A stretch of DNA of 64,000 nt from Flavobacterium marginilacus (GTDB lineage Bacteria; Bacteroidota; Bacteroidia; Flavobacteriales; Flavobacteriaceae). Of this stretch, positions 8,037 to 22,401 are shown piece after piece; position 1 is the stretch's first letter, and every line of letters starts with the position of its first letter. A model generated the notes under the pieces. The model saw only the letters and a list, made by a program, of their open reading frames with translations. It was not told where the DNA came from and made no database searches. The position numbers and the translations under genes are program-made. The stretch lies in contig NZ_CP113975.1 of NCBI RefSeq assembly GCF_026870155.1, positions 2,790,001 through 2,854,000 on the forward strand, written 5' to 3'.

Positions 8037-9125
8037 TTATCTGGATTTTTTCAAGTTATCAATAGCATCAACCATTCCATTTTGTTTTTTATCCAACGTA
8101 AGTTCCCAAAACATTATCCCGCCCAATTTCTTTTCTATGACGTAGTTTGTTTTTTCTTTTACAGAAGCAATATCATCTCCAGTTGCAAATAATTTTTCTT
8201 TTTCATTATACCAATAGGGAGCTTTAGCTTTTTCATCCCAAAAATAATTCCATCCTTTTTCTTTTGTAAAAGTTGTTTCATAATCTTTAAAATTAATTCC
8301 GTTTGAAGCAATGCCCGATTGATACAATCCATTATTTACATTAGAAACCTCTTTCCAAACTCGGGTATAAAAGGCTGCTCCAATTACTAATTTATTGGCT
8401 GGAATTCCCAACTTTAATAAATAGTCTACTGCTCGATCTGTTGATTCCTCAGTAGTATTAGTACTGAATAAAGGAGTATGATGACCTGTAACTTTAGAAT
8501 ATCCATTAACCAAATCGTAGCTCATTATATTGACACGATTTACCAATGGCATTACTTTTTCCCATTCTACAGACTCATCCAAATATTTTTGAAAACCTCC
8601 TGCTGCAAAACTTAGTTCAATTTTTGTTCCTAATTCCTTACGAAGCAATACAACTAGAGCAGTAAAATTTTCTTTATCGCCTTTTTGATATAAATGCTGA
8701 GGATAACCTTCGATTGCAGGATATTCCCAGTCTAAATCTAAGCCGTCAGTCTTAAAATAATTATTAACTTCTTTTACCGATTTAGCAAAAGCTGCTCTTT
8801 TTTCAGCAATTGAAAAAACTTCCGAACAAGGTTCACAACCGCCCCAGCCTCCTAGAGACAGCATAATTTTAAGATCAGGATTTTTATGTTTTAAAGAAAC
8901 TAATCTTTTAATTGCTAAAGAATCCTTTGGAGTATCTACACTTAATTTCCCTTCTTTCAGATGACAAAAACTAAAAATAATATGCGTCAATTTGAAAGGA
9001 TCGAATTCATCAATCTGTTTGTCATCACCCATATAATAAGCAATAACAGATAGATTCTGCTTTTTTTGTCCTAAAGCAAACAAAGGTATCATTGACAATA
9101 AAAAAAATATTTTTAAACTTTTCAT
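8037..9125 (-). CDS. GH18 chitinase
   Basis: A 362-residue secreted glycoside hydrolase family 18 enzyme. An N-terminal signal peptide (MKSLKIFFLLSMIPLFALGQ) is followed directly by the TIM barrel. SLGGWGG and the catalytic motif DGLDLDWEYP (D-x-x-D-x-D-x-E, with Glu134 as acid/base) are present, and MSYDLVNG supplies the Tyr that helps hold the substrate acetamide. There is no carbohydrate-binding module and no type IX secretion C-terminal domain, so it most likely acts in the periplasm or on the cell surface on chitin oligomers. It sits at the downstream end of the GlcNAc locus, separated from the hexosaminidase by a terminator, so it probably has its own promoter. Confidence 0.92.
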   Translation of the reverse strand: MKSLKIFFLLSMIPLFALGQKKQNLSVIAYYMGDDKQIDEFDPFKLTHIIFSFCHLKEGKLSVDTPKDSLAIKRLVSLKHKNPDLKIMLSLGGWGGCEPCSEVFSIAEKRAAFAKSVKEVNNYFKTDGLDLDWEYPAIEGYPQHLYQKGDKENFTALVVLLRKELGTKIELSFAAGGFQKYLDESVEWEKVMPLVNRVNIMSYDLVNGYSKVTGHHTPLFSTNTTEESTDRAVDYLLKLGIPANKLVIGAAFYTRVWKEVSNVNNGLYQSGIASNGINFKDYETTFTKEKGWNYFWDEKAKAPYWYNEKEKLFATGDDIASVKEKTNYVIEKKLGGIMFWELTLDKKQNGMVDAIDNLKKSR

Positions 9126-9328: not shown

Positions 9329-11401
9329 TTAAGCCTGAACTAATTTTTTCAGACTTTTATATACTGCCAATTCGACATCGGCATGCTCTTTCGAATTACA
9401 TTTTTCAAGCAGACTATTTAATACTGCTGCATCAATATTTTCTTTTTTATCAATTTTGAGTAAAAGCTGTTCTGCAATATCATTTAAACTCTTTGACAAT
9501 GGCAGCAACGATTTTACAAGCGGTGCATTATTACTCAATGCATTAAGATCCAAATCCATTTTAATCCATTTATTTAAATAGCTTATTACTAAATTTTGAT
9601 TTTCAGATGATTTGTTATTCAAAAAATTAGTAACAGCCTGGTCAAAATCTACCGCATCTGATGCATCCGGCGTGCAAACGTCTGCAAATAAAGTCAACGG
9701 AGAATACATTTTATATTCAGTCCCTTCGCTGTTTCTTGTATAACCTTTTAGCGGTTCGCAGACATTAGACAAATCAAATAGAGCATCACTTTTTTGATTA
9801 TTGCTGATATTTCTTAACAGACCTTCTTTACTTTTTAGATGTGTCAGTCCCAATTCTTCTAATCTAAAAGAAACAGTCTTCAGTCTTTTGCGTAAACTGT
9901 TAATATCTGTAACACTTTCATTAGACCAAAAACGTTCTGCAATAGCCGCTGTCCTAGGCCAAATTCTGCTGTCAATTGTTGCTGATGTTACTAATTCGGT
10001 CCACATAGTTGCTTCTCCACCCAAAATTCTTGCTTTTTCTTCATTAGTTAGAGTGACATTTTTAGGCATTGGATCTACCGTATAATGATCTGCAGCTTCG
10101 TACATCAAGTCGATATAGTATCCATTGGACAAAACAGTTTTGTAACCTCCTTTTACAGCATCCACTAATGATTGTCCTGCCGTCTGACCTTCATTAACCC
10201 CTTTCCAAGAATGGATTATAGCCTCTTTGGACATATTTTTGGTCATAATTTCTTCCCAGCCCATTAATTCTTTATTATGTTTTTTAAGCATTGGGATTAA
10301 CTGCATCGTAAAATAAGTCTGCAGTTCATGGTTGTTTGCTAAATTATGCTTCTTTTTGAATTCCTGAATTTTAGGATTCGCATCCCAGTCTTTGCCTTCG
10401 TTTTCATCCCCTCCAATGTGAAAGAACTTACCCGGAAAAAGCGGACAGACTTCATCAAAAATTGAACTTATAAGTTCATAAGTTTTTGGACTTGAAGGAT
10501 CAAGAGTAGGTGTAAAAATCCCTGCATTCCTTTCTAAATCATACTTTTGAATTTGTTTTAACTGCTGTCCTTTTTCACCATTGCCAACATTCAAAACTTC
10601 AACTTTACTTCCTATTTCCGGATAAGCGGTCAAAATAGCAGTTCCGTGACCTGGCATGTCAATTTCCGGAACTACTAGAATTCCTCTATCACTGGCGTAT
10701 TTTATAACATTTTTGATTTCTTCCTGAGTATAAAAATTCCCATCCGATGCCATCTGTATTAACTTCGGGTGTTTTTTCATTTCGATTCTCCAGCCTTGAT
10801 CATCTACCAAATGCCAATGAAAAACATTCATTTTTACAGCAGCCATTCCGTCCAGATTTCTTTTAATAACATCAACCGGCATAAAATGTCTTGCTCCGTC
10901 AATCATCAGCCCTCTCCAGGTAAATCTTGGAAAATCGGAAATTTTTGAAACAGGAAAATAAAATGAATTACTATTATTCTGTAAAAGCTGTAATAAGGTT
11001 TCCAAACCGTGCAGTGCACCAACATCCGTAGCCGCATTTATTGTAATTTTATTTGGAGTTATATCCAATAAATAACTTTCATCCTCATAAAGGTCAATTT
11101 TTCCGTTTCTCACACAATTAATCTGCAATTGAGCTTCTGGAACTTCATTTAAACCAGTTATGAATCCTTGGTTAAAAAACAGCCCTGTCCTTCCGTCCAA
11201 TCGTCTCAAAAAATTAGCTGCACCGACAAATATTCTTGCATTTGGAACACCGGTAATATTTACTTTAAAATTCTTTGTTAATGCAAAAGAACCTTCGCTA
11301 AGACTAATATTTTGAGGCCAAGGCATTACATTTAACTGCTCTTTAGTGACTTGAGCTGTAGAAACAAAAGAGGCTAATAAAAAAAACAGTATATATTTCA
11401 T
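9329..11401 (-). CDS. GH20 beta-N-acetylhexosaminidase
   Basis: A 690-residue secreted enzyme that removes terminal GlcNAc from chitin oligosaccharides. Signal peptide MKYILFFLLASFVSTAQ; then the GH20b alpha/beta domain (about residues 25-155), then the catalytic barrel starting at FTWRGLMIDGARHFMP. The catalytic pair is in HIGGDENEGKDW (Asp332, Glu333), with FHWHLVDDQGWRIE and EIDMPGHG also typical. The last 150 residues are helical and close to those of other Bacteroidota GH20 enzymes. It is 119 bp downstream of nagB on the same strand and is probably in the same transcript. Confidence 0.94.
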   Translation of the reverse strand: MKYILFFLLASFVSTAQVTKEQLNVMPWPQNISLSEGSFALTKNFKVNITGVPNARIFVGAANFLRRLDGRTGLFFNQGFITGLNEVPEAQLQINCVRNGKIDLYEDESYLLDITPNKITINAATDVGALHGLETLLQLLQNNSNSFYFPVSKISDFPRFTWRGLMIDGARHFMPVDVIKRNLDGMAAVKMNVFHWHLVDDQGWRIEMKKHPKLIQMASDGNFYTQEEIKNVIKYASDRGILVVPEIDMPGHGTAILTAYPEIGSKVEVLNVGNGEKGQQLKQIQKYDLERNAGIFTPTLDPSSPKTYELISSIFDEVCPLFPGKFFHIGGDENEGKDWDANPKIQEFKKKHNLANNHELQTYFTMQLIPMLKKHNKELMGWEEIMTKNMSKEAIIHSWKGVNEGQTAGQSLVDAVKGGYKTVLSNGYYIDLMYEAADHYTVDPMPKNVTLTNEEKARILGGEATMWTELVTSATIDSRIWPRTAAIAERFWSNESVTDINSLRKRLKTVSFRLEELGLTHLKSKEGLLRNISNNQKSDALFDLSNVCEPLKGYTRNSEGTEYKMYSPLTLFADVCTPDASDAVDFDQAVTNFLNNKSSENQNLVISYLNKWIKMDLDLNALSNNAPLVKSLLPLSKSLNDIAEQLLLKIDKKENIDAAVLNSLLEKCNSKEHADVELAVYKSLKKLVQA

Positions 11402-11520: not shown

Positions 11521-13458
11521 TTAGTACTCAAAACGTTTAAAAGCTTCAATCGCTTCATATTCTGCCAGACCTAGATCATCATATAATCGGGCAGTATTTT
11601 TATTTCGGTCCTCGGCTCTAACCCAGAATTCTCTTGAATCATTTCCTTGAAACATTACTCTGTCCTTTTGGGACTGATGGTATAAAATAGCCTGTCTTTT
11701 CAGTAACACTTCATCTGGACTCAACGGAACTGCCATGTCAATTTCATGTATGTCCCATTCATGCCAGGCACCTCTGTACAGCCACAGCCAGCAATCGTTC
11801 ATAAAAGTTTTTGATTTCAATTCTTTCATCGCTGCAAAAATAGCATTCAGGCACACTTCATGCGTACCGTGCGGATCTGCAAGATCACCTGCAGCAAAGA
11901 CCTGATGCGGTTTTATTTTTTCAATAATATCTTTTACAACAGCAATATCATCTGGTCCTAAAGGCTTTTTCTGAACCATTCCTGTTTCATAAAACGGCAT
12001 GTCCAAAAAGTGTGTATTTTCATCTTTCAGACCAATATATCTTGTTGCAGCATAGGACTCGCGTCTTCGTATCAGTCCTTTTAATTTTCTAACTTCTAAT
12101 GTGTCGCTTTGGCCAATTGGTTTTGAATTAATCGAATCAATTACGGATTGAAAATTAATTCCAGATTTATCCCCTTCAACAAAATCATTACATACTTCAG
12201 CAAACTTTAATGCTTCGTCATCTGTAACTGCAATGTTGCCAGAAGTCTGATAGACTACATGAACATCGTGTCCCTGCTTGATTAATTTTGCAAAAGTTCC
12301 TCCCATAGAAATCACATCATCATCTGGATGCGGACTAAAAAGAATTACTCTTTTTTTAGCAGGATTAGCTCTCTCTGGACGGAAAGAATCATCCGTATTT
12401 GGTTTTCCGCCGGGCCATCCCGTAATAGTATGCTGCAGTACATTGAACATATTAATATTCAAATCATAAGACGAGCTTCCCGAAGCTAATAAATCAGACA
12501 TTCCGTTATTATTGTAATCCCTGTCAGTCAGTTTTAAAATCGATTGATTGGTATGCTGGCAAAGCCAGACAATTGCTTTATTCTTTAATTGTTCAGTCCA
12601 GATACACTCCCCTACCAGCCAAGGTGTTTCCAAACGGGTTAGTTCAGAAGCGGCGCTTTTGTCTAAAACAAAAGTAGTATTATTGTGATTTTGTAAAAAA
12701 GTAGCCGGAACCTCTGAGCTGATATCTCCCTGAATCGTTCTTTTGATAATAGAAGCTTTGTTCTGTCCCCAAGCCATTAGTACAATTCTTTTGGATCTAA
12801 GAATTGTTGAAACACCCATCGTGATTGCTTTTTTAGGAACATTACTAATTCCGTTAAAATCACCTGAGGCATCAACTTTGGTAATATGGTCCAAAGTAAT
12901 AATACGAGTACCTGAGTTTATATGTGATCCAGGCTCGTTGAAGCCTACATGTCCCGTACGCCCGATTCCTAATAACTGAAAATCAAGTCCTCCTGCATTT
13001 TTAATATTCATTTCATAATCAACACAAAACTGATTCAAGTCTTCTAATGCGACAGTTCCATCAGGAATATTCACATTTTCAGGTCTGATATCTACATGAT
13101 TAAAAAGATGCTGGTGCATGAAATAATGATAACTCTGATTACTTTCCTTTGGCATTGGATAATATTCATCTAAATTGAAAGTAATAACGTTATCAAAACT
13201 CAAACCTTCCTCTTTGTGCATGCGAACCAATTCCTGATATACTTTTATAGGTGAAGATCCTGTTGCCAAACCCAATACACATTTTTTATTCTTTTCTTGT
13301 TTGGAACGAATTAAATCCGCAATCTCGTTTGCAACGATTATTGAAGCATCTGCAGCATTTTTAAAAATTACGTTATGGATTTTTTCAAAACGGGTATCTT
13401 CAAACTGACCTGCCTTTTTAAAGCTTATGTCATTACCTAAGTTTGATGTAGTTCTCAT
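11521..13458 (-). CDS. nagB: Glucosamine-6-phosphate deaminase fused to a LmbE/PIG-L deacetylase domain
   Basis: A 645-residue fusion. Residues about 25-290 are NagB: LGLATGSSPIKVYQEL, the NLDEYYP loop and GIGRTGHVGFNEPGS carry the active site that converts glucosamine 6-phosphate to fructose 6-phosphate and ammonia. Residues about 370-530 are a LmbE/PIG-L-like domain with the metal motif SPHPDDDVISMGG (His377, Asp379, Asp380) and GDLADPHGTHEVC. The second domain would fit deacetylation of GlcNAc-6-phosphate, which would join two catabolic steps in one chain; that role is inference. This fusion is known in Bacteroidota. A conserved promoter module lies 314-380 bp upstream, leaving a leader of roughly 300 nt. 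Confidence 0.93.
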   Translation of the reverse strand: MRTTSNLGNDISFKKAGQFEDTRFEKIHNVIFKNAADASIIVANEIADLIRSKQEKNKKCVLGLATGSSPIKVYQELVRMHKEEGLSFDNVITFNLDEYYPMPKESNQSYHYFMHQHLFNHVDIRPENVNIPDGTVALEDLNQFCVDYEMNIKNAGGLDFQLLGIGRTGHVGFNEPGSHINSGTRIITLDHITKVDASGDFNGISNVPKKAITMGVSTILRSKRIVLMAWGQNKASIIKRTIQGDISSEVPATFLQNHNNTTFVLDKSAASELTRLETPWLVGECIWTEQLKNKAIVWLCQHTNQSILKLTDRDYNNNGMSDLLASGSSSYDLNINMFNVLQHTITGWPGGKPNTDDSFRPERANPAKKRVILFSPHPDDDVISMGGTFAKLIKQGHDVHVVYQTSGNIAVTDDEALKFAEVCNDFVEGDKSGINFQSVIDSINSKPIGQSDTLEVRKLKGLIRRRESYAATRYIGLKDENTHFLDMPFYETGMVQKKPLGPDDIAVVKDIIEKIKPHQVFAAGDLADPHGTHEVCLNAIFAAMKELKSKTFMNDCWLWLYRGAWHEWDIHEIDMAVPLSPDEVLLKRQAILYHQSQKDRVMFQGNDSREFWVRAEDRNKNTARLYDDLGLAEYEAIEAFKRFEY

Positions 13459-13765
13459 GATTTTTTGTAATTATATATTTTAAATTGTATAAAAAATTAT
13501 AGTATCTCTATTATTAAATGTTAATTTTCATAAAGATACATATATCTTTTTCAGTTTTTATTAATTCTTTAATCCGTTTTTTGATGTAAAACCACTAGGT
13601 TTCACTTGTATATAAATTTTATTTTGAAAAAAATAAAAAGAAATTTCGATAGTAATAAACTCATGAATAAAGTAAAACTCCTTTAAAAATTTGAGCGGAA
13701 CTGGCTTTAATACCTTTATTCAATAAAAAAATCTTACAGCATTATTTTAATATTTTTTGTTGGTT
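13459..13765 (-). other. Long untranslated leader of nagB with a small upstream ORF
   Basis: If transcription starts about 6 nt after the -7 box at 13772-13779, nagB has a leader of roughly 300 nt. It holds a possible 20-codon ORF (13664 down to 13602, starting MSLLLSKFLFIFFKIK) preceded by AAAGGAG 14 nt upstream, and a small AAACC-TAGT-GGTTT hairpin. No known riboswitch was recognised. The rest is AT-rich with no other gene. Confidence 0.35.
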
Positions 13766-13771
13766 TTAATA

Positions 13772-13838
13772 CAAATTTATATTGACTTTATTCTTAGAAA
13801 AAATAAATTAAACCAACACATCTTTTTTTTAAACGAAC
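13772..13838 (-). promoter_or_regulatory. Promoter module of nagB: paired boxes plus -7
   Basis: On the minus strand the order is GTTCGTTT (13838-13831), then GTTGGTTT (13817-13810) 21 bp later, then exactly 30 nt, then TAAATTTG (13779-13772), a perfect TAnnTTTG box. No -33 TTG is present at the usual 17-23 bp, so an activator bound at the two boxes is expected. The same layout precedes susC and, more loosely, the MFS gene. The spacing of two helical turns between direct repeats is what LytTR-type regulators usually bind. Confidence 0.7.
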
Positions 13839-13923
13839 GGCATTATTCAATCAACAATGCGTTTTTTTGGTGACAATATGTTTTTAAAATTTTATCAAAA
13901 AATCGTGCAGCTTCATTTTTATA

Positions 13924-13952
13924 TCCAGACAGCCAATAAACAGCTGCCTGGA
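13924..13952 (-). terminator. Hairpin after susD
   Basis: TCCAGACAGC pairs with GCTGCCTGGA. The one mismatch becomes a G-U pair in the minus-strand RNA, which supports that direction. It lies about 40 bp after the susD stop. No clear U run follows, so it may be a terminator or an RNA-stabilising 3' hairpin. Confidence 0.5.
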
Positions 13953-13990
13953 ATAAAAATAACTGAATATATTAATTTATAAGGTCATTA

Positions 13991-15571
13991 TTAAAAATTA
14001 GCTCCGGTAGTATCCCACCAAAGTCTAGTTCCTCCATTATCAGGACCTCCTAATTTAGTTAGCCCAGTTGCAGCACCGCCAGGGTTTCCGTCTTTTTCAG
14101 ACTGTACAAAGTTTACTCTTCTCGGTCCATACTGAGTTGTAATTGTTCCCCCGCTGGTATTGTGCAATATTCTAAATAATTTTGGATATCCAGTTCTTCT
14201 GTATTCAGACCAGGCTTCCTGCCCTTCAGGGAAATTTGCAATCCATTTTTGAGTAATGATTTTTTGCAGCTTCACCTCATTAACGGCAGCACCATCCCAG
14301 GCAACAGTTACATTATTTACAGCCACTGCATTATTTGCTGCATCTTTAACATCTACGAAATCTTTAGCAGTTTTCACGTTATCAGCAATATAAGCTGATG
14401 CACCTGAAGCGCCATGCTGTGCAAACGAAGCTGTAATACCTGCTTCATATAAAGCTTGGGCAGTTCCTCCCATATTCCATCCTCTTAATGCTCCTTCTGC
14501 TCTCAGGAAAAATACTTCGGCAGTAGTCATTAACACTTTTTCATTTGATCCAACGATTGAACCAATTTCAGACATACCTGTGCGGTCTGATTTAGCTATC
14601 ATGTTAATACCGGTACGAACTCCTCTGTATTGACCAGGAAAATCAGCTGATTCATTAAAGTATTTTGCTAGTCTTGGATCTGCATATCCGCCCATGATAG
14701 ACTCCATATCTGCAGACATTCTGATATCACCCCATGAAGAGGAAATAGTTAGAATCGGATCTATAAAATTTGGAATGATTACTTTAGCGATATCAGCATT
14801 TGTAGTCATCACGCCAAAAGTCTGGCTGATTGCTTTTTCTGCTTCTGTTTTAGCCAAAGCTGGTTTTATTTTAACAATTCTCATAGCTAAACGCAGACGT
14901 AATGAATTTGCATATTTAATCCATTGTTTGTAATCCCCTCCGTAACCGCTCATATCTACTGATGCAAAAGTTGAAGCTTCACCAGCATTTACTCTTTTAG
15001 TCAATTCTGTAACTGCATAATCAAGTTCTGCAAACATTTTAGTGTACACTTCTTCCTGTGAATCATAAGGAATAGTAGTATTTGTTGTTCCAAACTGAGA
15101 ATATACAATTGGACCAAAAACATCAGTTACTCTATGCATTCCTTCCACTTTCAAGATCAACGAAATAGCATAGAACTGATCGTATTTACCTTTTGTTCTC
15201 TGTTCGATTTTTAAAGTATTTGCCATTACATCAGTATAAGGCAGACTCCAGATAAAACCATTCCAGCCATCAACAAAATTATAATTTGAGTTATCTCCTG
15301 CGGCTCCTTTAAAGGGAGTTGGCGTAGCCATATATCCTGACCAAATATCTGCACTCAGGTTTTGCTGTAACTGATATTTCCAGTGTGTTGTATTGAAAAT
15401 ACCTGTAAAAACAGTGGTAAAAGGAACTTTTACATGATTAAAATCCTGCTCAAGATCTTTAGCCGTAATCCCAGTCGGATTGGTGTTAATTTCGTTGAAA
15501 TCGCTTGTACAGCTTACTGCCGCAAGCAATGAAGCACATATAGCAGCTGTTTTTATTTTATTTAGTATCAT
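13991..15571 (-). CDS. SusD/RagB-type outer-membrane nutrient-binding lipoprotein
   Basis: A 526-residue lipoprotein of the outer membrane that binds the glycan at the mouth of its SusC partner. The signal ends in LLAAVSCTSDFNEINTNP, giving lipidated Cys21 and the FxExNTNP opening of the larger SusD-like subfamily. TPR-like helices follow (DVMANTLKIEQRTKGKYDQF; AELDYAVTELTKRVN; WIKYANSLRLRLAMRI), and the C-terminus holds KWIANFPEGQEAWSEYRRTGYP, a typical SusD ending. It starts 12 bp after the susC stop and is co-transcribed with it. Its substrate is inferred from neighbours to be chitin oligomers or GlcNAc-containing glycans. Confidence 0.95.
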   Translation of the reverse strand: MILNKIKTAAICASLLAAVSCTSDFNEINTNPTGITAKDLEQDFNHVKVPFTTVFTGIFNTTHWKYQLQQNLSADIWSGYMATPTPFKGAAGDNSNYNFVDGWNGFIWSLPYTDVMANTLKIEQRTKGKYDQFYAISLILKVEGMHRVTDVFGPIVYSQFGTTNTTIPYDSQEEVYTKMFAELDYAVTELTKRVNAGEASTFASVDMSGYGGDYKQWIKYANSLRLRLAMRIVKIKPALAKTEAEKAISQTFGVMTTNADIAKVIIPNFIDPILTISSSWGDIRMSADMESIMGGYADPRLAKYFNESADFPGQYRGVRTGINMIAKSDRTGMSEIGSIVGSNEKVLMTTAEVFFLRAEGALRGWNMGGTAQALYEAGITASFAQHGASGASAYIADNVKTAKDFVDVKDAANNAVAVNNVTVAWDGAAVNEVKLQKIITQKWIANFPEGQEAWSEYRRTGYPKLFRILHNTSGGTITTQYGPRRVNFVQSEKDGNPGGAATGLTKLGGPDNGGTRLWWDTTGANF

Positions 15572-15583
15572 GATGATATAAGA

Positions 15584-18500
15584 TTAGAAAGTTACATTTA
15601 AATTAAGACCGATACTTCTTGTAGATGGTGCTGCATAAACATCAATCCCCTGTAAACCATTACCTGTACTCAAAGAAATATTTGGATCAAATGGCGCATC
15701 TTTGTAGAAAAAGAATAAGTTTCTGCCTACTAAAGACAGGTTAGCAGTTTTGAAAATTTTATTATTTTTAAGATCAAATGTATATCCTAAAGCCAATTCT
15801 CTTAAACTTACGTTTGTAGCATTATAAATATATTCACCTGTTGCACCTTCTCTTCCACCCACTTGGCTGTAGTAGCTTTCTGCCGAGTATTTTCCTGAAT
15901 AAGCTTGTCCTGCATTTGGTGTTCCAGGAGCATAAACAGCATTGATATCTACACCGCCGGCAGCTCTGGCATCACCAGTTACTTTAGAAACACCAAATTT
16001 ATCATTTACCGCTTCAGTCAAACTCATTACATCTCCGCCAAAGCGTCCGTCAATTGTAAAGTTTAAGAAATAATTGCCATATTTAAATGAGTTAGTTAAA
16101 CCTAACATATAATCTGGATTTGCATTTCCAACTTCCTCAAAACCTGTTTTTTGGATTGAACCATCAGCATTCAGCAAAATTCTTCCCTGATCATCTCTTT
16201 TAAGGTTGATTCCTTCGATAACTCCAAATGGACGGCCGTTGATTAATGAATATCTATAACTGTTAACACCAGGCTGTGTCAAAACAACTGTTCCTCCTAA
16301 TTCTTCTGGCAATCCAGAAACTTTATTGTTGTTTTTTGAGTAGTTTAGAGTTGCATCCCATTTAAATTTATCATTATCAACAATTTTAGCATTCAATAAC
16401 GCTTCAATACCATTATTTTCAATCACACCGCCATTGTAAGCATAATTTTGATAACCTTCAGCATTTGTTGCTGGAGCTGGAATAGTAAGCAATTGATCTT
16501 TAGTTTTGTTATTGTAATAAGTTAATTCTATACCGAATCTGTTATTAACAAATCTCCATTCCGTACCTAATTCAAAAGAGTTTTGGCTTTCAGGTTTCAG
16601 GTTTGTACCTGGTCTTGGACCAACAGTTGGATTGATATTTTGTGGATTTGCAGCATTATACTGAGAAGTTGGTGAAGTATAGAATGCAGGAACATCATTA
16701 CCAACCTGTGCAAAGGAAGCACGAACTTTTCCAAATGATATTGCTTCTGGCATTTTAAACATTTCTGACAATATAGCTGTTGTTCCAACAGATGGATAGA
16801 AGAAAGAGAGATTTCCAGTGTTTGCCAATGTAGAAGACCAGTCATTACGCCCTGTGACATCTACATACAACATATTTTTGTATCCAAAAGTTGCTGCTGC
16901 AAAAACAGACTGCTGCTCTCTGCGGTATCCGTAATTTTGATAATTACCAGTATTTGAATTGAAATTATGAAGTGTAAACCAGTTTGTGATTCCTAAACCA
17001 GATGGATCAGAATCTAAAACTGTTTCATCATTAATTGAAGTTTTTGTAAAACTGGTACCTACGTTTGCAAAAAATGTAATATCGTTATTTATTTTCGTAT
17101 TAATTGTTGCAATTAAGTCACCGTAATTTTGAGTACTCACGTCGTCAATACTAATATACCTGCCATTTGCATGAGATAAAGTTCCTTGAGTTGAAGCATA
17201 AATTTCTTTATCAAATTGTGAAGTTACTCTGTCGTAATTGTATCTTGACCCAACAGATAACCAGTTATTAACTTTATAATTCAACCCAACAGATCCATTC
17301 ATCAGCTGATTGCCATCTACAGATTTATTGCGGTTTAATCCCCAATATGGATTTTGTTCAATATCTCTGTTAGTCATCCAGTTTTGAACCATCATATTTC
17401 TGGCAGGATCGAATTTTTCGAAGTTATTTTTATATTCGTTAAAATCATATCCTCTTGGCATTAGGTAAAGACCTGTTAACGGGTTAAAATACAAACCGCT
17501 GGTTGGTCTATTTGTAACATATTGAGAAGTGTAATTTGCATTGGCATTAACAGTTAATCTGTCTCCAAAGAATTTACCCATTTGTCTGATGCTAAAATTG
17601 TTTTTACTTAAACTGTTAGTTGGTATAATACCATTAGCAGAAGTGTTAGCATAAGAAATATTAGTAGCAGAATTTTGAGATCCAGTAGAGAAACCGAAAG
17701 AAGAAATTTGTGTTAATCCTGTTTCAAAAAAGTCTCTTGTGTGATCTGGTGTACTTTTTGCTGCTCCCCATGACTCATCTGCTCCTGGTTTAGCAATATA
17801 AGACGTTTGGAATTTTGGCAGATAAGCTGCAGTCTCAACAGTTGTATTAGAAGATACTCTGAAAGCAGAAATACCTTCTTTTGCTTTTTTAGAAGTCAAT
17901 AGAACAACTCCTCTAGCACCTTGGCTGCCATATAAAGCAGTTGCTGAAGCACCTTTAAGAACTGTCATCCCTTCAAAATCATCTGGATTTAACAGCCCAA
18001 TAACATCACCGCCGTCACGGTTACCTCCTTGAGTATTACCAAATGAATCATTAGGCTGAAATGAAGAAATATTCAGCATTGGTACCCCATCAACAACATA
18101 CAAAGGGTTATTGTTCGTAGTAGATGAATTTCCACGAATAGTAACTTTTGTAGAACCACCAGTACCTCCGGCACTTTTAGTTACTGCAACTCCGGCAATT
18201 TTACCAGCAATTGTATTCATTAAATTGGGATCTTTTGCTCTAACAAGATCTTCTCCTTTTAATTCTTGTGCAGAATAAGTCAAAGACTTTTTAGATTTCT
18301 TGATCCCTAATGAGGTTACAACTACCTCAGTCAAAGCTGTTGAACTTGCTGCATTCAGTTTTACATCTATAGTTGATGACTCACCTACTTCTACATTTCG
18401 TGTATCATAACCTAAGTACGAAATTATTAATGTAGCACCAGGCTTAACATCTAGTGTAAATTTACCGTCAAAATCCGTTGAGGCTCCATTAGTCTCCCCT

Positions 18501-18631
18501 TTTACGTTAACATTTGCACCTGATATCGGAGTACCCGAGGCATCTGAAACAAAACCATTGATTTTTTTTGTCTGCGCAAGGGTAACCTGCGCAGTAAAAA
18601 TAACCATTACGATTAAAAAAATTTTTCTCAT
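15584..18631 (-). CDS. SusC-type TonB-dependent outer-membrane transporter
   Basis: A 1015-residue glycan importer. After a signal peptide (MRKIFLIVMVIFTAQVTLAQ) comes a carboxypeptidase-regulatory-like domain (INGFVSDASGTPISGANVNV, about residues 24-110). Then the plug follows with NTIAGKIAGVAV and TIRGNSSTTNNNPLYVVDG, and a 22-strand barrel ends in the aromatic-terminated strand IGLNLNVTF. It uses TonB energy to pull SusD-bound oligosaccharides into the periplasm. It is the first gene of susC-susD. Its promoter module (18660-18726) matches the one of nagB, including the exact spacing, and it is divergent from the two-component genes. Confidence 0.96.
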   Translation of the reverse strand: MRKIFLIVMVIFTAQVTLAQTKKINGFVSDASGTPISGANVNVKGETNGASTDFDGKFTLDVKPGATLIISYLGYDTRNVEVGESSTIDVKLNAASSTALTEVVVTSLGIKKSKKSLTYSAQELKGEDLVRAKDPNLMNTIAGKIAGVAVTKSAGGTGGSTKVTIRGNSSTTNNNPLYVVDGVPMLNISSFQPNDSFGNTQGGNRDGGDVIGLLNPDDFEGMTVLKGASATALYGSQGARGVVLLTSKKAKEGISAFRVSSNTTVETAAYLPKFQTSYIAKPGADESWGAAKSTPDHTRDFFETGLTQISSFGFSTGSQNSATNISYANTSANGIIPTNSLSKNNFSIRQMGKFFGDRLTVNANANYTSQYVTNRPTSGLYFNPLTGLYLMPRGYDFNEYKNNFEKFDPARNMMVQNWMTNRDIEQNPYWGLNRNKSVDGNQLMNGSVGLNYKVNNWLSVGSRYNYDRVTSQFDKEIYASTQGTLSHANGRYISIDDVSTQNYGDLIATINTKINNDITFFANVGTSFTKTSINDETVLDSDPSGLGITNWFTLHNFNSNTGNYQNYGYRREQQSVFAAATFGYKNMLYVDVTGRNDWSSTLANTGNLSFFYPSVGTTAILSEMFKMPEAISFGKVRASFAQVGNDVPAFYTSPTSQYNAANPQNINPTVGPRPGTNLKPESQNSFELGTEWRFVNNRFGIELTYYNNKTKDQLLTIPAPATNAEGYQNYAYNGGVIENNGIEALLNAKIVDNDKFKWDATLNYSKNNNKVSGLPEELGGTVVLTQPGVNSYRYSLINGRPFGVIEGINLKRDDQGRILLNADGSIQKTGFEEVGNANPDYMLGLTNSFKYGNYFLNFTIDGRFGGDVMSLTEAVNDKFGVSKVTGDARAAGGVDINAVYAPGTPNAGQAYSGKYSAESYYSQVGGREGATGEYIYNATNVSLRELALGYTFDLKNNKIFKTANLSLVGRNLFFFYKDAPFDPNISLSTGNGLQGIDVYAAPSTRSIGLNLNVTF

Positions 18632-18659
18632 TTTTAAATTATTTTTGTTAGTTATAGCG

Positions 18660-18726
18660 TAAAATTATAAGGAAGGAGTTTCCTGAAAAAATAAATTAAA
18701 CCAACAGCACAGTTTTTTAAACCAAC
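18660..18726 (-). promoter_or_regulatory. Promoter module of susC: paired boxes plus -7
   Basis: On the minus strand two identical boxes GTTGGTTT (18726-18719 and 18705-18698) stand 21 bp apart. Exactly 30 nt follow, then TAATTTTA (18667-18660), one base from the TAnnTTTG consensus. The bases next to the proximal box (AATTTATTTTTTC) and beyond the distal box (TTGATTGA, GCATTATTG) are also shared with the nagB module. No -33 TTG is seen. The -7 box is 29 nt from the susC ATG. Confidence 0.72.
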
Positions 18727-18813
18727 GACATATTTCAATCAATAATGCGTTTTACGAAAACGTTTTCTTAATATACATTTTTTATCTTAATTAGACTTTT
18801 TTAGATTTTTTTT

Positions 18814-18843
18814 TACCAAAATGCCGTTTTTAATACCAAAATG
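18814..18843 (+). repeat. Direct repeat upstream of the histidine kinase
   Basis: TACCAAAATG occurs at 18814-18823 and again at 18834-18843, a 20-bp period, about 70 bp before the kinase ATG. It could be an autoregulatory operator or part of the kinase promoter. The boxes differ from the GTTGGTTT type. Confidence 0.35.
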
Positions 18844-18913
18844 ATTATTGTTGCAAAATAAAACACAACCTCAGATTGTCTGTTTTATTTAAACATTATC
18901 ATATTCAAGATCA

Positions 18914-19957
18914 GTGATGAAAAAAATTAACTTTCATATAAAACTTCAAAATCATATATGGTTTTGGTTTATCTATTTTATACTTAACTTCTTGAGATGG
19001 GGAGCTTATTTTAATAATTACGGATATTCTTTCAAATCGAATCTCATAGAATTTTCGCTTCATATACCATTAGTGTATTTCAATTTATTAATACTCATTC
19101 CTATGTTTGTATTAAAATCTAAATACATTAAATATGCCTTTTCGCTCATTGCAAGTTTGGCAGTTGTCTATTTATTAAAAACCGGGCTGACTTATTATTT
19201 AATTTCGAAAAATATATGGCCGGAAGCTAACAGAGATTACAGTCCATTTGAAATCAACCATATCGTAGCCGTCTGTATTGGAGAACTTTACGTGCTTGCG
19301 ATAGCATCTTCTATCTATTTGATGCTGACATGGCTCAAAGAAAGAGACCGCAACAAGGCAATAATAGAGAATCAGAACAAAATAAAACTGAAGTATTTAA
19401 AGAATCAGATTCAGCCTCACTTCTTCTTTAATACGCTCAATAATCTATACGCACTTTCATTAGAATCATCAAACAAAGTTCCAGATGTAATTATTAAGCT
19501 TTCTCAATTGATGGAATATGTATTATATGATATTGAAGATGTAAAATATGTGCCTCTAATAAAAGAAATAGATTATATTCAAAATTATATCGAAATTGAA
19601 AAACTGCGTTTTAAAAATGTAGAAGTCAGGTTCAATCTAGAATCCGATATTGACAATATAAATATTCCGCCGTTATTGTTTATTTCACTGATTGAAAATG
19701 CTTTTAAACATGGCGGAGCAAACAACGACAGACTTAAAATCAAAATAAACTTCAGAGTCATAAATTCTAAGCTCGAATTTGAAATAATAAATAATTTCGT
19801 AATTTCACCACCAATACCAAGCAAAAAAGGGATTGGTTTAACAAACACCAAAAAAAGATTAAAACTTATCTATAAAAACAATTTCAGCATACAGCAAGCA
19901 ATAAAATTCAGCTTTTATAGTATTAAAATACAAATACCTTTACATAATGAAGATTAA
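18914..19957 (+). CDS. LytS/YehU-type sensor histidine kinase
   Basis: A 347-residue inner-membrane sensor. Four membrane helices (about residues 15-32, 45-67, 72-90 and 115-140) are followed by a short coiled linker and the His_kinase domain, with the phosphorylated His in NQIQPHFFFNTLNNLYALS (His169). The ATP lid is degenerate-typical for this family (PLLFISLIENAFKHG, then KKGIGLTNTKKRL). It has no periplasmic sensor domain, so the signal is probably sensed in or near the membrane. Its stop overlaps the start of the LytTR regulator by 11 bp. It lies in the chitin locus, divergent from susC, so it likely senses GlcNAc supply or transporter state. Confidence 0.92.
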   Translation: MMKKINFHIKLQNHIWFWFIYFILNFLRWGAYFNNYGYSFKSNLIEFSLHIPLVYFNLLILIPMFVLKSKYIKYAFSLIASLAVVYLLKTGLTYYLISKNIWPEANRDYSPFEINHIVAVCIGELYVLAIASSIYLMLTWLKERDRNKAIIENQNKIKLKYLKNQIQPHFFFNTLNNLYALSLESSNKVPDVIIKLSQLMEYVLYDIEDVKYVPLIKEIDYIQNYIEIEKLRFKNVEVRFNLESDIDNINIPPLLFISLIENAFKHGGANNDRLKIKINFRVINSKLEFEIINNFVISPPIPSKKGIGLTNTKKRLKLIYKNNFSIQQAIKFSFYSIKIQIPLHNED

Positions 19958-20648
19958 ATGCGTAATAATTGACGACGAACCTTTGGCTATAAAAGTACTG
20001 CTCAATTATTTTGAAAATTTTTCAGAATTTGAAGTTATTGGAACTTTTAATAATTCATTAGAAGGCCTTGAATTTATCAATTCTAATACTGCTGATGCTG
20101 TATTTCTGGACATCAATATACCTATGATGACTGGTTTTGAATTAATTAAACTGCTGGAATACAAAACCCGGATTATCATCACAACCGCTTTCAGAGAATT
20201 TGCAGCTGAAAGTTATGATCTGGAAGTATTGGATTATTTAGTAAAACCAATTCCGCTGCCCCGCTTCATAAAATGTATCCAAAAAATTGAAGCAGAACAC
20301 AATTTAAAAAACAATATCAAAATCGAAAACCACCGTGCGGAACCGCATCTTTTTATCAAAGTGGATAAAAAAATGGTAAAGATAAATATTGATGAAATCC
20401 TTTTTATAGAAGGAATGAAAGAATACATCAAAGTTGTCACCGCAGAGAAGACTTATATAACTCATAAATCATTAACATCCCTAACTGATGAGTTACCTTC
20501 TGAGCGCTTTATGCGAATTCATAAATCGTATACAATTGCATTAAACAAAGTAAAATCCATAGAAGGAAACAGAATTCAGATTTCATCCTATACCATTCCA
20601 ATTGGAAGAAATTACAGCAAAGAAGTAAAAATAAAAATCTTAGAATAA
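19947..20648 (+). CDS. LytTR-family response regulator
   Basis: A 233-residue DNA-binding regulator. The receiver domain has DDEP near the start, phospho-acceptor Asp55 in VFLDINIPMMTGFEL, and Lys in YLVKPIP. Residues about 133-233 are a LytTR domain (KINIDEILFIEGMKEYIKVV; FMRIHKSYTIALNKV; IPIGRNYSKEV). LytTR proteins bind paired direct repeats on one face of the helix, two turns apart. The paired boxes before susC, nagB and the MFS gene have that geometry, so this protein is the leading candidate to bind them (inference). It is translationally coupled to the kinase. Confidence 0.94.
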   Translation: MKIKCVIIDDEPLAIKVLLNYFENFSEFEVIGTFNNSLEGLEFINSNTADAVFLDINIPMMTGFELIKLLEYKTRIIITTAFREFAAESYDLEVLDYLVKPIPLPRFIKCIQKIEAEHNLKNNIKIENHRAEPHLFIKVDKKMVKINIDEILFIEGMKEYIKVVTAEKTYITHKSLTSLTDELPSERFMRIHKSYTIALNKVKSIEGNRIQISSYTIPIGRNYSKEVKIKILE

Positions 20649-20663
20649 AAGTTATAAACAGAC

Positions 20664-20692
20664 AGCACACCATATGTTTTTAGTGTGTTTTT
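20664..20692 (+). terminator. Weak terminator after the response regulator
   Basis: CACAC and GTGTG pair around an AT-rich loop and are followed by six T, 20-45 bp after the regulator stop. The stem is short, so efficiency may be low. Confidence 0.45.
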
Positions 20693-20807
20693 TACATTTA
20701 TTCCGTAATCAAAAACTATCGGTTTTTTATACTGAAAGCGCAGTTCTACAACGTTTTTTTAGCTGCAAAAAAGCAATAAAACCGCCATTAGTTGACAATT
20801 TAATGTC

Positions 20808-20874
20808 GTTTATTTAAAAGTGAAAAACTTTATATCTTAAAATTTTTTTTTAAAATTCTTAACAAATATATTTA
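20808..20874 (+). promoter_or_regulatory. Promoter module of the MFS transporter
   Basis: The box GTTTATTT (20808-20815) is preceded by ATGTC, as in the susC module. A looser second box TTTATATC stands 21 bp on (20829-20836). Exactly 30 nt follow, then TATATTTA (20867-20874), a TAnnTTTA -7 box. Upstream GCCATTAGTTGA resembles GCATTATTGATTGA of the susC module. The boxes are weaker than in the other two copies but all distances are equal. Confidence 0.55.
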
Positions 20875-20931
20875 CAGTCTTGCAGCATCAAAAAAATTAA
20901 TAATAACCAAAAAAAATTAAATTTTTAAATT

Positions 20932-22401
20932 ATGAGTTCAGAAAATGTGCAAACCAAATGGGGGCAGTTTATTTCTTTGATAATCGTCTTCTTCTTTTGG
21001 GGTTTTGTTGGTTCGGCCAATGACATCTTAATCCCAGTATTCAAAAAAGTATTTACACTATCTCAAGTACAGTCACAGCTGGTTGCCTGGGCTTTTTATG
21101 CTGCTTACTTTGTAGGATCTATAATATTCTTTTTAGTATCTCTAAAAATTGATGTTTTACAAAAATTTGGATACAAAAAAACACTTTCTGCTGGATTAAT
21201 TCTTTCAGCTATTGGTTCATTTTTATTTGTTCCTGCTGCAACAATGGAAAGTTTTCCATTTTTCCTAACCGCCTTATTTACTGTAGGATTAGGATTTTCA
21301 ATTCAACAGATTGTTGCTAATCCTTTAGCAATTAAAATGGGCAGTCCAAACACTGGAGCACACCGTCTGACATTAGCGGGAGGTGTTAATTCATTTGGAA
21401 CAACTATTGGAGCGATTCTATTAGGAATAGCTTTATTTGGAATGGGAGACAACAAAAAAACAGCTCTTTCATTAGACGATATCAAACTGCCTTTTATCAT
21501 TCTAGGTCTTGCTTTTATCATTGTGGCTATTTTTATGAATTTTTCTAAAATAGAAGATCCGGAAAAAGTAGAAGAATCAGCTATAAAACATCCGCACAGC
21601 ACATTCAGTATCCTTGATTATCCGCAATTATATCTAGGAATGCTTGCAATCTTTATCTATGTAGGAACAGAAGTAACGATTATCAGTAACTTGCCTGCTT
21701 TATTGCACACGAGTGAGTTTGGCAGTATTCTGGAAGATGCTATTGCGCCATTTATTGCATTGTACTGGGGAAGTTTAATGATTGGGCGCTGGAATGGCGG
21801 AGTTAATGTTTTTAATACTTCTAATTTAGTAAATATTGCACTTAAATTTATTGTGCCTGCTTTAGGATTTGGAGTAATCATTGGTGCAAATATCTTTGCT
21901 GCACACGATGTATCTTCATTCTACATTTACCCATTCTGGATTTTATTATTCATCGCTGTAAGTTTCGCAGGTGGAAAAAACGCTGGAAAAACTTTAATGC
22001 TTTTTGGACTGTCAGGATTATTAATGATGGCTGCCGGCTTAGTTTGGCCTAATCCAGAAATTGCTAAATTCTTTTTTATCTCTGGTGGATTATTCTTGTC
22101 TATTATGTGGCCTTCAATCTTCGATTTAGCTATTGCAGGTTTAGGAAAAAATACTGGAAAAGGATCTTCTTTCTTAATCATGATGATTCTTGGCGGTGGA
22201 GTAATTCCTCTGGTACAAGGAAAAATATGCGATTTAGACTTAACTAATCCAAATGGAATATTTGGTATTACTTATACACATTTTTCATACATCGTACCGC
22301 TTATTGGCTTTGCCTATTTAGCATTTTATGGTTTTTACTGTCCTAAAATATTAAAGAGTCAAGGAATCAGCCATGTTGAAAGCGCAGGCGGCGGACACTA
22401 A
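20932..22401 (+). CDS. Sugar MFS transporter (FucP-like; probable GlcNAc permease)
   Basis: A 489-residue inner-membrane permease with about twelve hydrophobic helices. FFFWGFVGSANDILIPVFKK at the N-terminus and QQIVANPLAIKMG are features of the FucP/glucose-galactose sugar:H+ symporter group. Charged loops are few; a soluble loop near residues 205-225 separates the halves. Its position at the end of the chitin locus, with the shared promoter module, suggests that it carries GlcNAc (or chitobiose) across the inner membrane, like NagP of other bacteria; substrate is inference. It ends with a strong terminator. Confidence 0.92.
   Translation: MSSENVQTKWGQFISLIIVFFFWGFVGSANDILIPVFKKVFTLSQVQSQLVAWAFYAAYFVGSIIFFLVSLKIDVLQKFGYKKTLSAGLILSAIGSFLFVPAATMESFPFFLTALFTVGLGFSIQQIVANPLAIKMGSPNTGAHRLTLAGGVNSFGTTIGAILLGIALFGMGDNKKTALSLDDIKLPFIILGLAFIIVAIFMNFSKIEDPEKVEESAIKHPHSTFSILDYPQLYLGMLAIFIYVGTEVTIISNLPALLHTSEFGSILEDAIAPFIALYWGSLMIGRWNGGVNVFNTSNLVNIALKFIVPALGFGVIIGANIFAAHDVSSFYIYPFWILLFIAVSFAGGKNAGKTLMLFGLSGLLMMAAGLVWPNPEIAKFFFISGGLFLSIMWPSIFDLAIAGLGKNTGKGSSFLIMMILGGGVIPLVQGKICDLDLTNPNGIFGITYTHFSYIVPLIGFAYLAFYGFYCPKILKSQGISHVESAGGGH

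Follow-up and report, generated by a model that had tools for sequence, protein, structure and literature searches.

A box array with a 21-bp period in a Flavobacterium chitin locus as a candidate operator of its LytTR response regulator

Here we present an analysis of promoters in a 64,000-nt stretch of Flavobacterium marginilacus (contig NZ_CP113975.1, positions 2,790,001 to 2,854,000, hereafter the window; positions below are counted in it). By gene content and Pfam domains, the window holds a chitin/N-acetylglucosamine (GlcNAc) locus of the Flavobacterium ChiUL type, whose minus strand encodes GH18, GH20, nagB, susD and susC, and whose plus strand encodes a kinase (PF06580), a response regulator of the LytTR family and a major facilitator superfamily (MFS) transporter. 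Upstream of susC and nagB, three boxes with a 21-bp period precede a TAnnTTTR word at a fixed distance of 30 nt. Judged from sequence comparison, this array is very probably the operator of the adjacent two-component system, which is the counterpart of CusS/CusR by gene order. It would thereby provide a concrete candidate operator for a regulator genetically known to control chitin use in Flavobacterium.

The array upstream of susC and nagB

A first-pass annotation of the window, made from the letters, had described upstream of both genes two direct-repeat boxes with a 21-bp period, then exactly 30 nt, then TAnnTTTR. This description is true letter by letter. The susC pair GTTGGTTT/GTTGGTTT (minus strand, 18698-18726) is followed after 30 nt by TAATTTTA (18660-18667), and the nagB pair GTTCGTTT/GTTGGTTT (minus strand, 13810-13838) is followed at the same distance by TAAATTTG (13772-13779). 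The flanking words which it reported as common to the two promoters are real as well, and one of them, GCATTATTG, is the element here named box A, the pair being boxes B and C. The elements are listed below.

18660..18667, minus strand: susC -7 element TAATTTTA, starting exactly 30 nt past box C
18698..18705, minus strand: susC box C GTTGGTTT, half-site about GTYGTTNGTWTAA (letters and alignment of relatives)
18719..18726, minus strand: susC box B GTTGGTTT, half-site about TGTCGTTNGTTTAA (letters and alignment of relatives)
18740..18747, minus strand: susC box A CATTATTG(A), a conserved third element located one 21-bp period before box B and no clear copy of it
13772..13779, minus strand: nagB -7 element TAAATTTG (letters and profile match)
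13810..13817, minus strand: nagB box C GTTGGTTT (letters, genome pattern and profile)
13831..13838, minus strand: nagB box B GTTCGTTT (letters, genome pattern and profile)
13852..13859, minus strand: nagB box A CATTGTTG(A) (letters; box A is present in the nagB arrays of relatives)

Conservation was studied in the best 80 of 177 Flavobacterium-type loci found by a search with the regulator, where gene starts were placed by tblastn and up to 400 nt upstream were scanned. In these loci 112 susC upstreams are found, and all 112 have a TAnnTTTR word starting exactly 30 nt after the 8-mer of box C, as well as the three elements spaced at 21 bp, with A close to CATTRTTGA, B to TGTCGTTNGTTTAA and C to GTTNGTWTAA. 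Compared with 4600 Markov-1 shuffled upstreams, whose three-box score reaches a maximum of 18 (8 cases), 99 of the 112 score at least 19 and the remaining 13 score 18. Among the 112 there is a second susC, only 31-32% identical, with the same array, which indicates conservation of the promoter even though the gene itself has diverged. After removal of sequences at least 88% alike, the non-redundant set includes 26 susC, 6 nagB and 9 MFS segments, the MFS rows being picked in register. Within its 26 susC arrays, box C agrees with the sequence upstream at lag 21 in 10.3 of 13 positions on average, against 2.6-5.7 for the other lags from 17 to 25. For nagB, the array occurs in 7 of 38 upstreams within 400 nt and the other 31 are at chance level (score 12-15); the nagB of locus L003 is an eighth case with the array, located farther upstream, and the nagB genes missing the array mostly sit close behind susD.

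The first-pass annotation suggested a genome scan for the pattern. In the 5.32-Mb genome, GTTNGTTT-N13-GTTGGTTT occurs only at susC and nagB, and the reversed control gives one occurrence against these two. A looser pattern with at most 2 mismatches gives 8 occurrences in the window where 4.2 are expected, and 7 of 100 shuffles reach 8, which does not exceed chance.

Several other features lie near the arrays. The presumed untranslated leader of nagB extends about 310 nt past the array (13459-13771) and matches no Rfam family; no known family is found by Rfam anywhere in positions 13300-21200. At the presumed nagB start site the box recurs in inverted orientation (GTTGGTTT as read on the plus strand, 13759-13766), a feature not seen in locus L006. 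The palindrome-like GAAAACGTTTTC (18748-18770) adjoins box A of susC and is possibly the site of a second regulator; AACGTTTTCG or near forms occur in most of 24 aligned kinase-adjacent susC upstreams, while none is seen in the MFS alignment. The minus-strand word TGCAACNNTAANCAWT (18840-18855), located between kinase and susC array, is kept in most of the 24 aligned loci and may be the kinase's own promoter. Likewise kept in most of them is the susC leader word TAACTAACAAAA (18632-18659), perhaps a translation signal.

Distribution of the array and of its geometry

For the genome-wide search we built a profile of 94 columns (R1) from 31 susC and nagB arrays of relatives, leaving out the window, the near-identical L003 and every MFS promoter. 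Its E-values are rough owing to a shortened calibration, and the searches of more than 40 genomes were run under stricter filters that lose weak matches. In the genome of the window, R1 ranks susC first (E 7.6e-20), nagB second (1.2e-15) and the MFS promoter third (4.7e-4), with the fourth match at 0.039. Six other genomes were searched, including that with L042 (titled F. johnsoniae CI04). Five of them give three matches each in one contig stretch, and the sixth has two in the stretch and one weak match elsewhere. On a wider scale, an array match (E <= 1.3e-5) is present in all 20 of the 61 genus genomes that have a full-length regulator orthologue (at least 76% identity); the best match in the remaining 41, one of which has its regulator cut off at a contig end, is at E 5.6e-4. 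A match at E <= 1e-9 is detected in 94 of 299 sampled genus genomes.

The array is also found away from the main one. By our reading of the matches listed, seven strong arrays in seven genomes either lie more than 1 Mb away from a second strong match of their genome or are on a different contig. All seven precede one operon (L132, L133, L236-L240), which adjoins a PNPase-like gene and whose products are a protein of 233-268 aa, a TonB-dependent receptor, a DUF4249 protein and a protein of 558-562 aa. Pfam searches of L132 and L133 identify the TonB and DUF4249 domains in L132, and give no match for the small and the 558-562-aa proteins in either. Within the locus itself, a further array of genome G042 precedes a subtilase with a type IX secretion system (T9SS) tail (L136:12360-14699, Pfam), and in G300 a third match lies upstream of a similar-looking 783-aa gene (L241:8055-10406), both between susC and kinase. 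The distant targets speak for the array as the site of a trans-acting regulator and not only as an inherited part of the locus, and the TonB/DUF4249 operon is a candidate CusR target unlinked to it. The regulon would then be readable from sequence, including this distant operon and a secreted subtilase.

The same geometry is seen with a related regulator. A paralogous pair of histidine kinase and LytTR protein, 49-51% identical, is present in another glycan locus (L163-L169), which we take to resemble a locus for N-glycan use (GH92-like, GH130-like, symporter, fucosidase and a second nagB). Its promoters have repeats of a related half-site (GTTGTCCGTCTAA, GTTATTAGTCGAA; ending in GTCKAA or similar) with the 21-bp period; at GH92 the partner box is a weak one (7-11 of 13). 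Between the repeats and the -7 element there are 30 nt in 6 of 6 nagB and 5 of 7 GH92 promoters; of the other two GH92 cases, one has 31 nt and in one none is found. At the fucosidase gene, one of five loci has a gap of 31 and no site is found in the other four. In a scan of 34 LytTR neighbourhoods (541 kb), 17 sites score at least 20 of 26, all of them intergenic and distributed over 9 loci, with a gap of 30 in 15 and 31 in 2; no site scores 19, and five score 18. The scan consensus was derived from CusR arrays and the promoters of L163-L166, and 9 of the 17 sites (L167-L169, L200, L201) did not contribute to it. Among the latter, a 69%-identical regulator (L200, L201) has matching sites in front of susC and one further gene. 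For distant homologues (L202-L208), inspection by eye finds some promoters with one good box and a degenerate -7 near 30 nt, which are not counted. These comparisons show the geometry for this branch of LytTR regulators and not beyond it. We suggest only tentatively, at somewhat less than even chance, a Flavobacterium promoter class in which a LytTR dimer sits on a fixed 21-bp grid ending exactly 30 nt before the -7 element and replaces the -33 contact, with half-sites differing among at least three regulator groups, namely CusR, its relative with 69% identity and the paralogue from the other glycan locus. If such a class is true, whole glycan regulons would be readable from sequence.

The MFS promoter, the core promoter and the reading of the array

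The third promoter of the window is that of the MFS transporter, whose elements are given below.

20787..20794, plus strand: MFS box A ATTAGTTG (C[AT]TTGTTG(A) in relatives)
20808..20815, plus strand: MFS box B GTTTATTT (mostly GTTNGTTT or GTTNGTAT in relatives)
20829..20836, plus strand: MFS slot C TTTATATC, empty; taken as the second box in the first-pass annotation, mostly not box-like in relatives
20867..20874, plus strand: MFS -7 element TATATTTA, 51 nt after box B and 30 nt after slot C

The first-pass annotation had paired GTTTATTT with TTTATATC here. These letters and TATATTTA are present, but the pair it named is not the conserved one and is ruled out, for relatives keep A and B and not the TTTATATC slot. 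The distance from box B to the -7 element is 51 nt, that is 21 + 30, showing that the register is kept and the proximal box is missing. In relatives, 65 of 80 MFS upstreams score at least 16, and 62 of these 65 have the -7 element in register. L010 and L011 carry a 42%-identical MFS protein.

We take the -33 TTG element and its spacing of 17-23 nt to be a feature of promoters of the primary sigma factor in Bacteroidota. The first-pass annotation stated that this TTG is missing from its usual place, and relatives bear this out: a TTG at that spacing (17-23 nt) from the -7 element is absent from all 119 susC/nagB arrays and from all 9 non-redundant MFS promoters. A T-tract fills the place, and a TTG closer to the -7 element (5-16 nt) is found in 5 of 9 MFS and 3 of 26 non-redundant susC promoters. 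The -7 element itself matches the TAnnTTTG type of the Bacteroidota primary sigma, with A more often than G as last base in the 31-array alignment. This type is placed at -12 to -5 (PMC9723704), and the predicted positions are then -50 to -43 for box C, -71 to -64 for B and -92 to -85 for A. The centre of B and C at susC and nagB would be near -57, a usual position of LytTR activators, just upstream of the -33 place. The further claim that the boxes replace the -33 contact needs correction, as they come to an end near -43, immediately before the place of that contact and not on it; the regulator may make up for the missing TTG. If the contact is truly replaced, this would show how a TAnnTTTG-type core of Bacteroidota becomes activator-dependent.

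In the reading that we prefer, phosphorylated CusR would bind half-sites of the GTYGTTNGTTTAA type in boxes B and C on one helix face, 21 bp being two turns, and box A would be a third contact or a helper element. CusR would recruit the polymerase and activate the TAnnTTTR core that has no -33 TTG, probably in response to chitin oligosaccharides. We infer CusR as binder, its activating role, the start sites and the inducer from sequence. At the MFS promoter, A and B only, 21 bp farther upstream in register, would lead to activation that is weaker or less dependent on the regulator. Growth of F. johnsoniae on GlcNAc and on glucose also requires the counterpart of this transporter (PMC5127042), and the arrangement may fit a promoter less tied to the inducer. 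The idea of the first-pass annotation that the neighbouring LytTR protein reads one regulon is thus supported by the geometry, the profile, the co-occurrence, the distant operon, the paralogue and a published deletion, after correction of the MFS pair.

Some observations weigh against this reading. Part of the co-occurrence of array and regulator is accounted for by linked inheritance. No site with gap 30 or 31 is found at 25 of the 34 LytTR neighbourhoods (15 other LytTR loci of the genome of the window and 10 distant homologues), in a scan with one consensus that misses other half-sites. The MFS score of 16 is also reached by 214 of the 4600 shuffles, and single MFS scores are hence not strong; box B is degenerate in the window's own MFS promoter, and those of L010 and L011 keep the -7 word without boxes A and B. 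Finally, box A is weakly similar to B, and its lag 21 is not above lag 17 at susC and nagB and about equal to it at MFS. Box A as a plain half-site copy is unsupported by this lag analysis, and something else may read it.

The likeliest alternative is that CusR reads B and C (and the paralogue its own boxes) while box A is the site of a cooperating second factor. It is compatible with CusR as operator reader, and differs at box A only. Box A (AACRCATTRTTGA) is conserved about as well as B and C and yet different in sequence, and in most of the 24 aligned loci susC also has, directly upstream of box A, a palindrome-like element of the CGTTTT type. However, the distance between A and B is 21 bp at all three promoters (susC, nagB and MFS), the MFS promoter keeps A and B without C, which suggests that A pairs with B, and LytTR operators with three repeats exist for RcoM and CoxC (PMC11347149). 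We regard a second factor as rather unlikely on balance. Considerably less probable is that some other transcription factor reads the whole array, with an indirect role for the LytTR pair next to it. That box A is no clean copy of B or C would suit such a factor, but array and full-length CusR orthologue agree in 61 of 61 genomes (20 with both and 41 with neither, at the thresholds used), the paralogous pair is accompanied by repeats of a related kind in the same arrangement, and the array has the usual form of a LytTR site (PMC4847170, PMC11347149). Repression by CusR until the inducer is present, for which CoxC offers a precedent as a LytTR regulator that represses from three direct repeats (PMC11347149), is very improbable, as box C ends near -43, upstream of the core promoter, where the site of CoxC overlaps -35, the core has no -33 TTG, and deletion of cusSR leads to loss of ChiA and not to its derepression (PMC5127042).

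The locus, its regulator and known systems

The genes of the locus are as follows; CusR is proposed to read the array, and susC, nagB and the MFS gene are its proposed targets.

18914..19957, plus strand: sensor histidine kinase, CusS-like (PF06580, Pfam E 3e-23)
19947..20648, plus strand: LytTR response regulator, CusR-like, proposed reader of the array (PF00072 E 3.9e-17, PF04397 E 4.4e-20)
15584..18631, minus strand: susC, TonB-dependent receptor, proposed target (open reading frame (ORF) and Pfam)
13991..15571, minus strand: susD-like lipoprotein gene downstream of susC (ORF and Pfam)
11521..13458, minus strand: nagB, glucosamine isomerase + PIG-L, proposed target (ORF and Pfam)
9329..11401, minus strand: GH20 hexosaminidase, probably co-transcribed with nagB in a putative operon
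8037..9125, minus strand: GH18 chitinase, probably co-transcribed with nagB in a putative operon
20932..22401, plus strand: MFS sugar transporter, proposed target (ORF and Pfam)

The regulator has FMRIHKS as the FhRhHRS-like DNA-contact motif of LytTR proteins (PMC4227749); in an alignment of 21 sequences, F, H and S of the motif are invariant and R is nearly so. R209 and N222 of the window protein vary between the CusR and paralogue groups as R/S and N/S, respectively. Among the best 60 of 116 PDB sequence matches, all to the receiver part, there is no template of a LytTR domain with DNA.

The closest known system is ChiUL of F. johnsoniae, in which CusS/CusR are Fjoh_4563/4564, and whose gene content and order are as in the window (PMC5127042). 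There, cells deleted for cusS-cusR lose ChiA and no longer grow on chitin, a defect reversed by supplying the genes on a plasmid (PMC5127042). Our match to CusS/CusR is by gene order and not by sequence identity to the UW101 proteins, and the F. johnsoniae arrays are those of L042 (titled CI04) instead of the UW101 record. The parts of PMC5127042 consulted describe no operator or promoter, and the word LytTR is missing from its main text. LytTR proteins, paired repeats two turns apart, their placement just before the core promoter, three-repeat operators, the chitin locus and its regulator are already known; the operator appears to be new, since in the literature searched, with subscription papers mostly outside, none is seen for CusR or for another SusC-linked LytTR regulator, nor any LytTR operator at a SusC gene.

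In form, the susC arrays match the usual LytTR site, which consists of direct repeats of about 9 bp that are 11-13 bp apart (PMC4847170, PMC11347149). Three elements at two-turn spacing are also seen in the operators of RcoM and CoxC, which are one-component and responsive to carbon monoxide (CO), and whose three repeats have one consensus, unlike A compared with B and C here; moreover, the site of the repressor CoxC overlaps -35 (PMC11347149). The LytTR activators AgrA (at P2/P3), YpdB and the LytTR regulatory system (LRS) regulators HdrR/BrsR likewise use half-sites in direct repeat, spaced by about two turns and placed just before the core promoter. The promoter-proximal repeats of AgrA are centred near -60 (PMC4227749), close to the predicted -57 here. 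In contrast to these, the array in Flavobacterium precedes TAnnTTTR without a -33 TTG, has another half-site and a third element A, and stands before genes for SusC/SusD and a sugar transporter.

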